DNA from: Verrucomicrobium sp. BvORR106
Lineage (GTDB): Bacteria; Verrucomicrobiota; Verrucomicrobiia; Verrucomicrobiales; Verrucomicrobiaceae
Assembly: GCF_000739655.1 (NCBI RefSeq)
Contig: NZ_BATR01000004.1
Location: 1-32,761 of the forward strand
Length of the DNA: 32,761 nucleotides
Reading direction: 5' to 3'
Shown in pieces: positions 1 to 9,757 of the stretch (its first letter is position 1; each line of letters begins with the position of its first letter). Under the pieces are notes generated by a model, which ran no database searches, had not been told where the DNA came from, and worked only from the letters and a program-made list of their open reading frames with translations. The position numbers and the translations under genes were made by a program.

Positions 1-17
1 GTTTAGTTTTAGATATT

Positions 18-163
18 GAGGGCTGTAGGCCCGACGTCATTCAGGGATGCTCGTCGTGGGCGGGCTTGATGAGGCCGGGCCTTCAGCCCTCAAGAGTTTT
101 TTGGTCATCTATTCCTTGGGCGTTGCCCAAGGCTGCTATCACGCCGAGCCTTCGGCCCTCCTG
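18..163. repeat. REP-like palindromic intergenic element
   Basis: Positions 18-33 (GAGGGCTGTAGGCCCG) and 76-91 (CGGGCCTTCAGCCCTC) are inverted copies with one mismatch, so the stretch can fold into one long stem. A second perfect hairpin, CTTGGGC-GTT-GCCCAAG, follows at 115-131, and a third GC-rich one (GCCGAGCCTTCGGC) lies near 152-165. The arrangement looks like the REP/BIME-type elements scattered between genes in many Verrucomicrobia. No open reading frame here looks like a protein. Nothing else is recognisable up to the gene end at 297 apart from the solitary IS end at 243-258. Confidence 0.7.
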
Positions 164-242
164 AAGTGGCATTCCTACCACCGGTATGGCGGATGCACCG
201 TCGCGACTTCGACCTCACCAAGGCAAAACAACGAGACTCTCC

Positions 243-258
243 TTTTCCCTGATGGCAT
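243..258. repeat. Solitary IS4-family end (remnant)
   Basis: TTTTCCCTGATGGCAT here is identical to the outer part of the right terminal repeat of the IS element at 11346-11364 and to the complement of its left end at 9909-9927. No transposase lies beside it in the window. It is either a remnant of an earlier insertion or a one-ended leftover. The match is short, so chance or shared ancestry with another repeat is not fully excluded. Confidence 0.5.
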
Positions 259-2173: not shown

Positions 2174-2230
2174 CGGTGCCAAAGTGCCCGGCCCTGATCA
2201 AATTCTCACATTCCGCATTCTGATACAAGA

Positions 2231-5200
2231 ATGCTCGGCGTCCGGCGTATCCCTGCCATGCCGAGACTAGTTCCGTTTCTCCTTTGCACCCCCATTTTGA
2301 GCGCCGCGCTCCTGGCGCAAGCCCCCGCCGCCGATGCTGACGGCCAGCCCCCCGCAGGCAATGACGAAGTGCGGAAGATCATGGAGACCTTCACCGGCAG
2401 AGGGACGCTCAAGGACGGCACACCACCGACACCGCCCAAGGAGGCCCTGAGCAAGTTCCAGCTCCGCAAGGGGCTCACGATCGATCTGATGGCTTCCGAG
2501 CCGGGTGTGGAGCAGCCTCTCTGCATGACCTGGGACTCCCGTGGCCGGCTCTGGGTCACGCTTTACCGCCAGTACCAGTTCCCCGCCGGGCTGAAGATTG
2601 TGAAGTATGACCAGCACCTCCGGGCTGTCTTTGACCGAGTGCCGGAACCGCCGCCCAAGGGTCCCAAGGGGGCCGACAAGGTGGTGGTGCTGGAGGATAC
2701 CAACGGCGACGGGGAGCTGGACTCCCAGAAGACCGTGATCGAGGGCCTGAACATCGCCACCTCCGCCCTGGGGGGGATGGCGGCATCTGGGTGATGAATC
2801 CACCCTACCTGCTCTTCTACCCCGATGCGAACCGGGACGACGTGCCCGATGGCGATCCCGAGGTGCATCTGAGCGGCTTCGGCCTGGAGGACACACACGC
2901 CGTGGCCAACAGCCTGCGCTTTGGCCCGGATGGCTGGCTCTACGGCGCCAACGGCAGCACCACCACGGGGAACGTCAGCAGCAAGGTGAGCAAGAACGTG
3001 AAGTGGGAGGGCCAGTGCCTGTGGCGCTACCACCCCGGCACGCATGTCTTTGAAATCTACGGCGAAGGCTCGGGCAACCCGTTCAGCTTGGAGATCGATG
3101 CGAAGGGGCGCTACTTCGCCAGCACCAACGGCAGCCAGCGCGGCATGCACTATGACCAGGGCATGTACGGGGAGAAGAACTTCGGCAAACACGGGCCGCT
3201 CACGAACTCGTACGCCTTTGGCTGGTTCCCCCACATGGAAACCAAGGGCGACGGCAAGCGCTTCTCCCAAGCGATCTGCGTGTACGACGGCGACCTCATG
3301 GCCGACACGCTGGGCGGGCGCTACATCGCGGCCAACTCGCTCCAGAACATGATCTATGTCAGCCAGTTGGTTCCTACCACCTCCACCTTCCGTGCCGAGG
3401 ATGAACCGCCGCTGCTCACCAGCTCGGACCGCTGGTTCCGCCCGGTGGACTGCAAGGTGGGCCCCGATGGTGGCATCTACCTGGCCGACTGGTATGACAC
3501 CCGCCTGAGCCACGTGCGCCCGGTGGATGACTGGCACAAGACGAGCGGACGCATCTACCGCATCCGCCCTGAGGACAAGAAGCCAGTGCTGAAACCCTTC
3601 GATCTGCATACGGCTCCCCCAGCAGAGCTGCTGGCGAAGCTCGACCACCCGAACCGCTGGTTCCGGCAGCAGGCCGCGCTGGAGCTGGGCTGGAGGAAGG
3701 AGAGCAGCGTGCTGGCGGCGGTGAAGGCCAAAGCCCTCGATCCCAAAAATGCGCACGCCTTTGATGCGCTCTCCGCCCTGCTGATGTTGGGCGGGCTGGA
3801 GGAGGAAACGGCGCTGGATTTGCTGCGCCATCCGGATCCCTATGTGCGCCGGTGGACCGTGCACAGCCTCGGTGATCGCGGCAATCTCAGCACCCAGACG
3901 GTGGCAGCGATGAAACAACTCGCTGCAACCGATCCGCACCCTGAGGTGCGAACCCAGCTCCTCAGCAGTGCCACACGGTTGCCGACGGAAGCCTGCCTGG
4001 CCATCACGCATGCCAGCCTGCTGCGGGCCGATGCCGCAGAAGATGCGCGCCTGCCGCTCATGATCTGGTGGGCGGTGGAGAGCAAGGCGGTGTCAGATCG
4101 CGAGGCGGTGCTGGCACTGCTCAAGGACGAGCAACTCTGGACTCAGCCCGTCGCCCAGAAGCAGGTGATTACCCACCTCGCCCAACGCTGGGCGATGGCC
4201 GGCGGCCCGGAGAACTACGATGCTTGCGCCAAACTGCTGGCCCTGGCCAAGAGTGAGAGGAATCGCTCGCTCGTGGTCGAGGGCATTGCCGCCGCGTTTG
4301 AAGGCGGCAAGATGCCGGAACTCCCCCCCGCTATTCAGGAGCCCATGCAGGCCTTCCTCAAGAGCCGTCTAGACACCGATCTGGGTCTGGCGGTGAAGGC
4401 CGGGAATGCCGAGGCTGCCACCAAGGCACTGAAGATTGTGCAGGACAAGACCGCCCCCACGGAGAAGCGCGCCGCGCTGATCCAGGCGCTGGCCGATACC
4501 GGCAACGCCGCCGTGGTGCCCGCGATGCTGAGCATTCTGAGTGACGCGAGCAGCACCGGCCTAAAGAAGGCTGTACTGCCGCTGGCAGCGAAGTTCGACG
4601 AGCGGCGACTGCCCCAGGCGGTGATCAAGGGATATGAGTCCCGCTATGCCGGTGACAAGACCTTGCGCGATGCCGCTCATCGCATGCTCATCAGCCGCCG
4701 TGAATGGGCCAGCCTCTTCCTCAAGGAAGTGGATGAATGGCGCATCAAGAGCGCTGATGTGGCTCCCGATGTGGTGAGCCAGCTCGCCGCGTATTCAGCA
4801 CCGGAGTTCGACGCCCCTATCAAGAAACACTGGCCACCGAAGAGCGCCGCCCTGACTGACAGCCAGAAGCAGGCGGACCTGCAGCGTATCAAGGCCGCGC
4901 TGGCAGGTGGCACCGGAGATGTCGAGAAAGGCAAGGTGCACTACGCCCAACGCTGCGCCGTCTGCCATACGCTCTTCAATGAAGGCGGCAAGATCGGCCC
5001 CGATCTCACAGGCTATGAGCGCGGCAATGTCGAGTTCTGGCTCACCGGTGTGCTCGCCCCCAGCATTGAGATTCGCGAAGGATTCGGCGCCTACATCGCC
5101 AAGCTCAAGAACGGCCAGGTGATGATGGGCATCATGGAGAAGCAGGACGCCGGCGGGGTCACCCTCAAGGACATGGCCGGTCAGCGCCACACCGCCAGGA

Positions 5201-5319
5201 CCGAGGAACTGGAGAGCCTCGAAGCCTCCCCAATGTCGATGATGCCAGAAGGCCTGTTCGGGGGCATGAGCGACGCCGATCTGCGGGACTTCTTTGCCTA
5301 TCTGATGAAGGAAAGCTGA
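2231..5319 (+). pseudogene. PVC-type beta-propeller/HEAT/c-heme protein, frameshifted
   Basis: Two overlapping frames (2231-2794 and 2791-5319) together encode a secreted protein of the putative membrane-bound dehydrogenase/Pirellula-Verrucomicrobium heme-binding type. Adding one G to the G7 run at 2770-2776 joins them into about 1029 residues, reading GLNIATSALGG then DGGIWVMNPPYLLFY across the junction, as expected for the family. Order: signal peptide (about 1-30), seven-bladed propeller-like dehydrogenase domain with FGPDGWLYGANG and VGPDGGIYLADWYD motifs, HEAT-like helical repeats, then a mono-heme cytochrome c domain with CAVCH at 4954-4968 (about residue 909) and a later GPDLTGYERGN segment. 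The C-terminus (MSDADLRDFFAYL) is also typical. The family is thought to oxidise sugars or alcohols in the periplasm; the substrate is unknown. The break may be a sequencing error, real decay or slippage at the G run. Confidence 0.88.
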
Positions 5320-5424
5320 GGGACGGTAGTTCGGTGATTCAGTAAATCGGTAAACCAGTGGATTGCCTGAGCCGACTGGATGTTAAACTCCTCCTTTACA
5401 GGTGGAACGGAGAGGGTTGGAGTA

Positions 5425-5438
5425 CCGCCTTTAGGCGG
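5425..5438. repeat. Short hairpin repeat CCGCC-TTTA-GGCGG
   Basis: This perfect hairpin lies in the 215-bp spacer after the heme-protein gene, within the phrase GTTGGAGTACCGCC. A related phrase, GTTGGAGTTCCGCGGC, recurs near 21084. It belongs to the dispersed palindrome class seen through the window. It could help end transcription, but no T-run follows. Confidence 0.45.
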
Positions 5439-5534
5439 CTCAGGAAACAACCCTCCCAGGATATCCCGTGCCCCCCGGCGAACTGACTTGCTCCTCACAG
5501 TTGCCTTTCGGAGAAAATCCGCCACCATCGCGCC

Positions 5535-7091
5535 ATGCGTTGGTGGCTCCCTCTCCCATCCACTTTGGCCCTCCTGCTTCCCTGCCTGGTCACGCTCAAC
5601 TCCGTCTCCCAGTCGCTGGCGCAGGCCCCGGGGGTCGCCCCAGATCCCAAGTTCGCCGTTGAGCGGACGCCATCCCCTGCCGAGATCTCGGCTTTCTTTG
5701 ACGCCATCGAAGAAGGCGATGCCACGGCGGTCACCCGCCAACTGGACGCCGGCATGTCCCCAGACATCACTGATGCCAAGGGGGTGAACGCGCTCTACTT
5801 CGCCTGTGACAAGGAGCGGCCCAAGATTGCACAGCTACTGATCGCCCGTGGCGCGAACGTGAATCTCACACCCAGGCACGGCAGCACCGCGTTGCAGGTC
5901 TCGATTTACCGGGGATTTGACTCCTATGAGCTGAAGCCCGCAGAAGGATACCCGGAACTCATCAAGACCTTGCTGGCCAAGGGGGCGGACGTGAATGCGG
6001 CGGATGGGGAGGGCAACACACCGCTGATCGCTGCGGCAGAGAAGGACGATGTGGCCACCCTGAACCTCCTCCTGGAGCGCGGCGCGGACCTGAGCCACAC
6101 CAACGAGAACGGCTGGACGGCGCTTGATCGCGCCGTGAGTTATCGCCGTCGCACCATTGCCCGCAAGCTGGTGGCCGCCGGAGCCCCACTGGATGAGGCA
6201 CAGCAGCAACATCTGGCCAACTATCAGTTTGCCCGCCGGGCAGGCGGCTGGTTTCCGGTGATCTTGGTAGGCAGCTTTGTCCTGGCTTCCTTCATGCACC
6301 AGCGATTCAAGGCCCTGCCGAAGCCCGCTGAGACGCCAGGCGGTGGCGACAGCCTGCCCAACCTGCAGCCGCTCAAGTGCAACGCTTGCGGCGGCAGCGC
6401 GTCTCTGAGGCCAGGCAAGGCCACCTGCTCCCATTGTCACGAGCCCGTCCCCGTGCCGGAGGACTATATGGAGACGCTGAAGCTCCGCGAGCGTACCTTC
6501 AAGCTGCTGAAGAAAGCCGGGCTCCTGTGGAAGCGGGTGAGGCTGCTGTCCGTGGCACCCATCCGCTGGACCCTCTGGATCGCCGCCGGCTGGTTCGTCT
6601 GGCGCATGTCGAAAGGGTTGTTTCCTCACTTCGTCCGGGATGCGCTTTATGATCTCATGACTTTCGCGGGCACCATGGCCTGGGCCCTGGGGGTGCTGGC
6701 CATGTCCGCCATCGCCATTGCCCTGGCGGGCTATGCCCTCTATCTGGCCTGTGTCCGCGCCACACTGCCGGATCTGCCTGTGCAGAGGGCAGCTAATGGC
6801 CAAGAAGAGGATGTGCCCTGTCCGAACTGCGGCGGCTCAGTGAACCTGCAACCTGCGGACCTTGTCGGCGTCTGTGGCTACTGCGGCAGCGAGACCTATC
6901 GCACCGCCCTGGCCCGCGAAGCGCGGTCCGCAGCGACCGAGGAGAAACACGCCGCCGCCACCTCCCTGCACCAGGCGATGGCACGGATCTATGAGATGCG
7001 GGAGACTGCTGCGCTGGCAGTGCCGATGGCGATCCTGGCAATCGGGTTCGGGCTGGTGCTGGTGTTATATGTGGTGCTGTTGTTTGTGTGA
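5535..7091 (+). CDS. Ankyrin-repeat membrane protein with two zinc ribbons
   Basis: The 518-residue protein combines domains in an order I do not recognise as a named family. Residues 1-31 form a signal peptide ending near SLAQA. Residues about 48-225 hold ankyrin repeats, with ANVNLTPRHGSTALQ, ADVNAADGEGNTPLI and ADLSHTNENGWTALD marking successive units. A membrane segment follows at about 240-258, then zinc ribbon 1 (Cys282, 285, 298, 301). A basic helical stretch and two membrane segments (about 343-360 and 378-410) lead to zinc ribbon 2 (Cys429, 432, 447, 450), an Ala/Glu-rich coil-like region, and a C-terminal membrane segment to the end. If the signal is cleaved, the ankyrins sit outside and both ribbons fall on the cytoplasmic side, a self-consistent topology. 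It stands alone. A scaffold or membrane sensor is only a guess. Confidence 0.82.
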   Translation: MRWWLPLPSTLALLLPCLVTLNSVSQSLAQAPGVAPDPKFAVERTPSPAEISAFFDAIEEGDATAVTRQLDAGMSPDITDAKGVNALYFACDKERPKIAQLLIARGANVNLTPRHGSTALQVSIYRGFDSYELKPAEGYPELIKTLLAKGADVNAADGEGNTPLIAAAEKDDVATLNLLLERGADLSHTNENGWTALDRAVSYRRRTIARKLVAAGAPLDEAQQQHLANYQFARRAGGWFPVILVGSFVLASFMHQRFKALPKPAETPGGGDSLPNLQPLKCNACGGSASLRPGKATCSHCHEPVPVPEDYMETLKLRERTFKLLKKAGLLWKRVRLLSVAPIRWTLWIAAGWFVWRMSKGLFPHFVRDALYDLMTFAGTMAWALGVLAMSAIAIALAGYALYLACVRATLPDLPVQRAANGQEEDVPCPNCGGSVNLQPADLVGVCGYCGSETYRTALAREARSAATEEKHAAATSLHQAMARIYEMRETAALAVPMAILAIGFGLVLVLYVVLLFV

Positions 7092-7284: not shown

Positions 7285-7713
7285 CTACAAGGGCAAAAGA
7301 TTGATCTGCTGAAATTTGTCCGACAGCGGACAGAAGAAGTCCCCGGTGTGATCGACCTCGATACTGTTAAGCTGCCAGTTCGAAAACTTGACCATGATCG
7401 CCCCAATCTCCTGCCCGCCATCAAAGCCGATCATGATGGCGCGTCCCGTCTCCCCCTCCGGAAATTGCACCTCATCCCAATAGTTGATCAGCCAGAGCGC
7501 TTCATCGTAGCTCGTCGCAACTCTTGCGTCCACGAGGGCATCGGAGACAACACGAAGGATTTTGGGCCAGCGTTCCAGCGCTTCCTGGATCAGTGGAAGC
7601 GTGTGAAGAGATTCGCGAGGGAGGCCGTACGGCGAGAAATAGCGGACGGAGTTGACGAGTGCAGAGCGGTCGTTGTTCATCGCGCATGATTTGTTGTGAA
7701 GTCTATTGCTCAC
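7285..7713 (-). CDS. Unknown small protein, last gene of a three-gene unit
   Basis: The 142-residue protein matches no family I know. It is soluble-looking, without signal peptide or membrane segment. Its GTG start overlaps the stop of the upstream gene in a GTGA arrangement, which is typical of translational coupling and is why I favour 7713. A later ATG at 7680 (MNNDRSALV) is a credible alternative. The middle contains an acidic/aromatic stretch (YDEALWLINYWDEVQFPEGETGRAIMIGFD) whose style resembles small SMI1/SUKH or immunity-type proteins, but I cannot show homology. Base composition is lower in GC than the core genes around it. With its two upstream partners it looks like an acquired unit. 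Confidence 0.65.
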   Translation of the reverse strand: MSNRLHNKSCAMNNDRSALVNSVRYFSPYGLPRESLHTLPLIQEALERWPKILRVVSDALVDARVATSYDEALWLINYWDEVQFPEGETGRAIMIGFDGGQEIGAIMVKFSNWQLNSIEVDHTGDFFCPLSDKFQQINLLPL

Positions 7714-8132
7714 GGCTGCGATGGTGGCTCCAGACGAGAGTGTTCTCGATCTGACGCCAGCACCATGCTCCTGGCAACAACGAAACCCGCCACACCGTAG
7801 CTGGAGGCAATGTGCCAGACTTTCAACCCATGCCTCTGCACAAGGTCAGGCAAACTGTCCTCTGCGCCCTCAGTTCTGGGCCAGCCATATTCTTTGAGCC
7901 GCTTGAAGAGATCGCCAAAACTATTCACTTCCTGGTCGATGCCCGAATCCTCGATATCAAAGATGATGTCGTGCCCCAGAACTGACTCGACGTGATGCGT
8001 CCACACGTCGTAGAACCACACGTCCGTAAACTCAGCCGGAGTATTGTGCGGATAGCACGTCCGAAGCACCAGAGTGGAAGTTCGCGCATCAAACTCATAC
8101 CCGTAGAGATAGTTGTCATGGACAGAAGGCAT
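7710..8132 (-). CDS. Unknown small protein, middle gene of the unit
   Basis: The 140-residue product begins MPSVHDNYLYGYEFD. The frame is open further upstream, to 8405, but that extension is antisense-like, arginine/proline-rich, and overlaps the membrane-protein gene. The ATG at 8132 sits just after that gene's stop and is the natural start. The protein is acidic and aromatic-rich (FTDVWFYDVWTHHVES, IIFDIEDSG) with no signal or membrane segment. The style resembles single-domain immunity or accessory proteins, but no toxin or secretion gene is present to support that. Its stop overlaps the GTG of the next gene by four bases, so the three genes are probably co-transcribed and coupled. Confidence 0.65.
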   Translation of the reverse strand: MPSVHDNYLYGYEFDARTSTLVLRTCYPHNTPAEFTDVWFYDVWTHHVESVLGHDIIFDIEDSGIDQEVNSFGDLFKRLKEYGWPRTEGAEDSLPDLVQRHGLKVWHIASSYGVAGFVVARSMVLASDREHSRLEPPSQP

Positions 8133-8134
8133 GG

Positions 8135-8727
8135 TCAATTTGGCTCGATCGGACGCTTTTTTTGCTCTGCGAATACTCGGGGGCTTTTTGTCGGAAGATA
8201 GGGCCCCTTCAGGGGAAACAGCTCCAATGGCCTTGCAAGATCGGCTGTAGTAGCAGGTGCACGACGAACAAGGATGGGAGCCCTGGGCCTGTCTGACACG
8301 AGATCTTGCGGGAGGCGGCGGAGAAGCAAGAAGAATGACAGCAAGATCCCAGCGGCAGCCAAGGGCCCAAGGCCGTACGTCTCCACGTAGTTTTTGATCG
8401 TCCACGCCAGCCCAGAGGATGAGCGCCCCATGGCATCATCCACGATGTTGTAGCACCAATCCCCAACAACAAGGTCCCAGCAAGCAATCCGAAAATCGTG
8501 AGCCCATCTCGATGGCCAAACCACAAACTGGTTACCATGCTGTAGAGGAACAATCCCCCCAGCGCCGCCAAGGCGATAAATGGGATGCCCAACGGGAAAC
8601 TCGCAATCCCCAGAAGCAGAGACATGAGTGACAGACCACCCACCACCACACAGAGCGGCAAGATGACCACCATGCTGATGACGAACTTTCCTAGGTGAAT
8701 CTTCGCGTCTTGGCTTTCGTTCTTCAC
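8135..8727 (-). pseudogene. Four-helix membrane protein, frameshifted
   Basis: The N-terminal frame from ATG 8727 gives MKNESQDAKIHLGKFVIS followed by strongly hydrophobic segments. The C-terminal frame ending at 8135 gives another hydrophobic segment (GPLAAAGILLSFFLLLRRL) and a basic tail. Adding one base in the C4 run at 8461-8464 joins them into about 197 residues, reading AGTLLLGDWCYNIVDDAMGR across the join. The continuous product would have about four membrane segments (residues about 13-33, 36-58, 76-96 and 115-135) and a cytosolic Pro/Arg-rich tail. No family is recognised. It is the first gene of the compact minus-strand unit, with two bases between its stop and the next start. Confidence 0.62.
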
Positions 8728-8834
8728 GGCGGATCAATCCCTGTTTCTGCATACGGTAGTGTGAAGCAGATCTGAGGGCAAGGAACTTGCCAGATCAAGA
8801 CCGCCTTCCTGTCCGCATGAGAATCAGTGAGCTT

Positions 8835-9254
8835 TCATCGGCCTGTCTCCCCCTCAACCCCAAAATAGCCCCTTCGAAGCGGCGCAAAGAAAGCCCGTTC
8901 TCCTAGCTCGACCCCCAGGTGTAAAAGTAAACGACGGAGAGGAACATCGCTCTCCGTGAATTCGATCTCTTCCAGAACTTGCCCATCACGAAATGCAAAA
9001 CCAGCGTGGTCACATACCCCTCCAAAGCACTCCACATACAAATACACGAAAGTAGTTGATGGGAATCGGGGACTCCAGTCAACCAAGACAAGATCCCGTG
9101 CTGCCTGGTTGTCAGCACGCTCGGTGCCGAATTTAACGCCGAAGCCCCGAAACGGCTGCTCCACCTTCCGCCCCACCCCAGGCACTTGAGAGAGCAAATC
9201 ATTCATGACCCCCTCGTCTCCATTCGAAAAGACTCCTGAAAAGTTGAATGCCAT
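8835..9254 (-). CDS. Unknown small protein
   Basis: The 139-residue product begins MAFNFSGVFSNGDEGVMND. I prefer the ATG at 9254 because the first residues look like the structured beginning of a domain. An internal ATG at 9206 has a much better ribosome site (GGAG and GAGGGG just upstream) and would remove 16 residues. The protein is soluble, with beta-strand-like aromatic stretches (TTFVYLYVECFGGVCDHAGFAF). No domain is recognised. It lies 108 bp upstream of the three-gene unit on the same strand and shares its lower GC. Confidence 0.6.
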   Translation of the reverse strand: MAFNFSGVFSNGDEGVMNDLLSQVPGVGRKVEQPFRGFGVKFGTERADNQAARDLVLVDWSPRFPSTTFVYLYVECFGGVCDHAGFAFRDGQVLEEIEFTESDVPLRRLLLHLGVELGERAFFAPLRRGYFGVEGETGR

Positions 9255-9343
9255 GTGCTGAGGTCGCGAGTTACTTTGTATGCCCTCTGCCAGGTGCAGC
9301 CAGCCACTTGGCTAGACAAGCATAAATCTTCATCCCCGCCAAG

Positions 9344-9757
9344 TCACAGGCAGAAATAGAGATACATGGATTGTTTTAGGTCAAGCGCCCTTTGAGCAAC
9401 TGCGGCAATCATCTTGATGACATCTTCGGCTTCGTCGGCACTGCACTGCATCTCCTCGGTCGCAGCCCACGCCTTGGACGCCTCCGACATTCTGGCGGCA
9501 TCCAGTGTAGCAATCTTTCGCACAAGATCTTCAGGCACAATGTTGAGCCATTCTTCATCATGAGCAAAGACTTCCGTAAACTCGTCGATCAAAGCAACGT
9601 CCCATTCTCTCCCATCGATGATGGCCCAGAGCATCGATAGCTTCAAGGGCTCCATCGCGCTCATCTCTGCAACATCCTCCTGTGGCAGGTCATGATTCAG
9701 TTCGATTCGCACTGCGGTCGTCTCGTCAGCAGTGAAGAATATTGAAGGCAGGCTCAT
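9344..9757 (-). CDS. Unknown small acidic protein
   Basis: The 137-residue product is acidic and mostly helical in composition (MSAMEPLKLSMLWAIIDGREWDVALIDEF), with a Glu/Ala-rich C-terminal helix region. It has no signal peptide or membrane segment. The ATG at 9757 has no clear Shine-Dalgarno site. No family is recognised. It is the first of the run of minus-strand unknown genes and lies about 150 bp from the left end of the IS4-family element, with no recognisable gene between. It may be cargo of the same accessory segment. Confidence 0.58.
   Translation of the reverse strand: MSLPSIFFTADETTAVRIELNHDLPQEDVAEMSAMEPLKLSMLWAIIDGREWDVALIDEFTEVFAHDEEWLNIVPEDLVRKIATLDAARMSEASKAWAATEEMQCSADEAEDVIKMIAAVAQRALDLKQSMYLYFCL

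Follow-up and report, generated by a model that had tools for sequence, protein, structure and literature searches.

An ankyrin-repeat membrane protein with two putative zinc ribbons in Verrucomicrobium sp. BvORR106

The window, a 32,761-nucleotide stretch of contig NZ_BATR01000004.1 of Verrucomicrobium sp. BvORR106, carries at positions 5535-7091 (+) a gene whose product joins ankyrin repeats, four membrane segments and two four-cysteine ribbons in a single chain. This architecture, put forward in the first-pass annotation, is borne out by Pfam, hydropathy, a predicted model and invariant cysteines. The protein is read here, with a probability of about 0.45, as a scaffold or sensor with an accessory role in the inner membrane; through it, protein binding in the periplasm may be linked to ribbons in the cytoplasm. 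Rather than founding a new kind of system, it seems to be a local invention that can be done without.

The gene and its ankyrin domain

The frame opens with an ATG, the first ATG, GTG or TTG past a stop, and encodes 518 amino acids followed by a stop codon. The product aligns without gaps over 518 residues with an ortholog from Verrucomicrobium sp. BvORR034 (87% identity), and the two genes give a dN/dS of 0.115 at a dS of 0.67 (NG86, 518 codons, one sequence pair, no significance test). Because the eight ribbon cysteines are kept in this ortholog and because of the dN/dS value, the sequence comparison identifies 5535-7091 as a real gene under purifying selection; the window and BvORR034 sequences are the only two intact copies available for judging conservation. 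Among the segments compared, dN/dS is highest in residues 1-31 (0.28), followed by 0.225 around TM3, 0.114 in the ankyrins, 0.086 around ribbon 2 and 0.065 around ribbon 1. Minus-strand frames overlapping the gene were set aside, the plus-strand frame being the one under selection.

Residues 1-29 (5535-5621, +) are a probable cleaved signal peptide, with S-L-A or A-P-A preceding Q30. The residues at -3 and -1, to which the rule was applied by eye, fit cleavage before Q30 in both orthologs, and the hydrophobic core is preceded by a single positive charge. The region differs at 13 of 31 residues between the two proteins, and its hydropathy falls under the cut-off in the window protein and over it in the ortholog.

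The ankyrin domain occupies about residues 47-219 (5673-6191, +). Pfam Ank_2 matches with 84.5 bits against a cut-off of 27.3 (E 7.9e-24), and the corresponding match in the ortholog has an E of 2.7e-24. The predicted model forms five helix pairs over residues 51-220 (block mean pLDDT 72-93) and superposes on DARPin 7b4t_A with Z 22.5 over 162 residues (rmsd 1.8) in a fold search whose listed matches all fall in this domain. Structure prediction, one of the checks proposed in the first-pass annotation, gave a good model of the ankyrin domain only and a poor one of the membrane part: past residue 230 the 10-residue pLDDT means are 32-68, and a separate model of the C-terminal part has a mean pLDDT of 51.7 and a pTM of 0.26.

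Ribbons, membrane segments and topology

Ribbon 1 (C282, C285, C298, C301; 6378-6437, +) has the form C-x2-C-x12-C-x2-C and ribbon 2 (C429, C432, C447, C450; 6819-6884, +) the form C-x2-C-x14-C-x2-C, in agreement with the general four-cysteine ribbon pattern. The eight ribbon cysteines are invariant between the window protein and its one ortholog, unlike C406 in TM3, which is a serine there. None of 20000 sequences made by shuffling residues 226-518 contained two such units. Both units are presumed to bind zinc. The ribbons share 9 of 24 residues (E 5e-4 in a single comparison), by which an origin through duplication is only suggested.

From the N terminus, the chain runs signal peptide, ankyrins, TM1, ribbon 1, helix, TM2, TM3, ribbon 2, helix, TM4. 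TM1 covers about residues 239-257 (6249-6305, +; hydropathy 1.75) within a model helix at 221-259. TM2, the weakest segment, covers about residues 342-358 (6558-6608, +; helix 342-361, low confidence). TM3, about residues 379-407 (6669-6755, +), is one long helix at 364-410 in both models, again at low confidence, and TM4 forms the C terminus at about residues 494-518 (7014-7088, +; hydropathy 3.06) inside a model helix at 471-517. A hydropathy scan with a mean cut-off of 1.6 recovered TM1, TM3 and TM4 of the window protein but neither TM2 nor the signal peptide; applied to the BvORR034 ortholog, the same scan recovered all five segments. The predicted model places helices over all hydrophobic segments.

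Four topologies were compared by counting K and R up to 15 residues from the membrane ends. With the ankyrins periplasmic and both ribbons inside, 10 charges lie in and 4 out (ortholog 11 and 5); the counts are 8 and 6 (10 and 6) if TM2 does not span, 6 and 8 (7 and 9) if TM3 is a hairpin, and 4 and 10 (5 and 11) if the protein is inverted. The charge count thus favours periplasmic ankyrins with both ribbons in the cytoplasm as the best-supported of the four topologies, as the first-pass annotation had it, though the weakness of TM2 and of the signal peptide by hydropathy leaves the assignment insecure.

The weakness of TM2 also lends some credit to the improbable arrangement in which ribbon 2 is periplasmic, either with TM2 non-spanning or with TM3 folded as a hairpin. 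A non-spanning TM2 still leaves the larger charge inside in both proteins, and residues 374-407 of the window protein form an uncharged run of 34 residues that could hold a hairpin. Residue 378 is, however, a lysine in the ortholog, where 29 uncharged residues are left; the hairpin puts more charge outside than inside, TM3 is a single helix in both low-confidence models, and four-cysteine zinc sites are less expected in the oxidising periplasm. Both ribbons on the cytoplasmic face remains the preferred arrangement.

Distribution and loss in relatives

Full-length relatives were sought in several ways. Six short peptide patterns, suited to close relatives only, hit 44 stretches of genome contigs, one of which (BvORR034) encodes a relative. 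Matches at E <=1e-3 occur in 39 of 68 genomes of the family, the source genome included; apart from the two full-length genes, the family matches listed all lie in the ankyrin part, except for 33 residues in G067, a member of the genus whose genome is a single contig. The ribbon-membrane part used as query matched in four of 96 relatives: the two orthologs, a remnant in G067 and locus L035, in the ribbon only (E 6.9e-4). Across the phylum, with 387 genomes sampled from a larger group and at most seven candidates scored per genome, the two orthologs alone fell under 1e-3 (next match 0.0018), and 147 genomes matched at a loose limit of E 0.5; G067 is not among these matches and was evidently not part of the draw. 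The search for the same architecture in Verrucomicrobiota, also proposed at first pass, thus yielded one full-length relative, in BvORR034, but none else among the genomes searched.

Individual loci were inspected as well. In both strands of L001-L031, which are best matches only, a frame of at least 150 codons with at least three CxxC motifs and a hydrophobic segment was present only in L001, L002 and L003; of these, L002 corresponds to the window, and L001 and L003 represent a single gene, judged by their contig and position. By eye, no ankyrins were seen in the frames of 11 loci (L039, L042-L047, L050, L058, L059, L063), picked by scanning L039-L066 (28 of 30 new phylum loci) for frames with two CxxC motifs. 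One of these loci, L043 (-), holds a 546-codon frame that by eye joins a ribbon to a membrane glycosyltransferase family 2-like protein. Searches of plasmid and phage collections with the ribbon-membrane part gave nothing at E 0.01, and whole-protein peptide patterns had no match in viral contigs.

In G067 the gene is reduced to a single 91-bp stretch, 95.6% identical and with an in-frame TAA, lying at a site (L036, about 5386-5870) beside about 250 bp that match window positions 6-258 at 80%. A 292-base query from the gene end gave one match each in three of four genomes of the genus, the fourth genome being 76% complete. These remains suggest that the gene was once present in G067 and then largely deleted. 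Because it appears largely deleted there and the upstream gene is intact (open, a frame of 1040 aa), the ankyrin–ribbon gene is probably dispensable in G067 and untied to that neighbour. On sequence evidence the full chain has a narrow range: two species carry it, and a third seems to have lost it.

The upstream gene (window 2198-5319) encodes a protein with DUF7133, HEAT repeats and cytochrome c. In the window its reading frame changes near 2773-2776, so that the gene falls into two frames, and in both relatives it is a single frame; the split reflects either a genuine frameshift or an error in the sequence. Just upstream of the ankyrin–ribbon gene, positions 5404-5429 are part of a dispersed repeat found at 13 places in the source genome including itself (<=3 mismatches; reversed control pattern 0), and similar stretches are present in G067. 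Downstream, 7285-9757 (-) holds four small open frames of 142, 172, 139 and 137 aa, for which no Pfam match was found at E 0.01.

Proposed role and comparison with known families

As an accessory scaffold or sensor, the protein would work as follows. Directed by the signal peptide, the ankyrin domain would reach the periplasm and bind a protein partner there; four membrane helices would keep two zinc-ribbon loops, each followed by a helical segment, on the cytoplasmic face; and binding outside would most likely gather or position the ribbons, which would hold a cytoplasmic protein. This reading builds on the observed domains and their order, on zinc ligands that are kept in both orthologs and on purifying selection, to which presumed secretion, topology and zinc binding are added. 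The poor membrane model, the weakness of TM2 and of the signal peptide, and the loss in a relative count against it. At first pass it was suggested that the protein could relay an external signal to a cytoplasmic metal-binding module, and conserved neighbours were to be noted. That idea found no backing: no partner gene was found, and the upstream gene survives in G067 despite the loss, therefore no partner is indicated.

A new type of one-chain receptor, invented within one bacterial genus and using periplasmic ankyrins to control two cytoplasmic ribbons that membrane helices flank, seems unlikely; if its topology and coupling were true, it would show common binding modules assembled into a membrane-spanning receptor within a single genus, with a narrow reach of two intact members and one apparent loss. 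A passive membrane scaffold, in which each of the two module types holds a protein and no signal crosses the membrane, is a plausible though less favoured reading. Binding is the usual role of both ankyrins and zinc ribbons, and no family besides ankyrin scores over its cut-off; four helices, however, would exceed what an anchor needs, and nothing in these data separates scaffolding from signalling. That the gene is decaying, or recently assembled and of little present function, is very improbable: its presence in two species, with a remnant carrying a stop in a third, would fit, but purifying selection and the retention of all eight zinc ligands at the observed dS disfavour it.

The claim that no named family has this order holds for the models and literature searched. 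No Pfam or NCBIfam model spans the whole chain, the domain search returned only ankyrin models over their cut-offs, and no family of this architecture was found in the literature as represented by titles and the opening parts of abstracts. The ribbons pass no Pfam or NCBIfam family cut-off. DZR (PF12773), which matches weakly at ribbon 1, scores 16.0 bits with the whole protein (cut-off 27.3, E 0.014), 17.9 with the C-terminal part and 15.9 with the ortholog, and Zn_ribbon_3 (PF13248) scores 9.3 bits (cut-off 27, E 1.1). Both families have CxxC...CxxC ribbons like those of the window protein; in DZR, however, the two ribbons are adjacent, whereas here 127 residues, with membrane segments among them, lie between residues 282-301 and 429-450. 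MzaA of the MZA anti-phage system reaches 63.9 bits against an equivalog cut-off of 800, its best stretch (138-218) lying in the ankyrins. Weak family matches to MqsA-type antitoxin (E 0.14), DotU/TssL (E 0.78) and HypA (E 0.15) were set aside, and two cytochrome chains matched by the C-terminal profile among solved structures (E 0.68 and 0.89) were taken as chance.

DZANK1 is not known to have membrane segments. This protein of 752 aa, which has been linked to vesicle transport and to the ciliary base, shares with the window protein zinc fingers (244-317) and ankyrin repeats (595-681) in one chain, but its zinc fingers are N-terminal to the ankyrins, the reverse of the order here (PMC4617706). 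Closer to the source organism, L035, L043, L044, L045 and L047 of Verrucomicrobiota resemble the protein in CPxCGG-type ribbons and hydrophobic segments (those of L035 judged by eye) and differ in their central parts and in having no ankyrins by eye; the similarity is limited and weak (E 6.9e-4 for L035, about 0.003-0.005 for the others). Within the family, L021 (943-2589) encodes a membrane protein of acyltransferase family 3 that contains ankyrin repeats, and L022, which comes from a different genome in the family, is alike by eye; L021 differs in its Acyl_transf_3 domain, whose two matched parts flank the ankyrins, and has no ribbons. Set beside these proteins, the ankyrin–ribbon protein appears as a new combination of ordinary modules.
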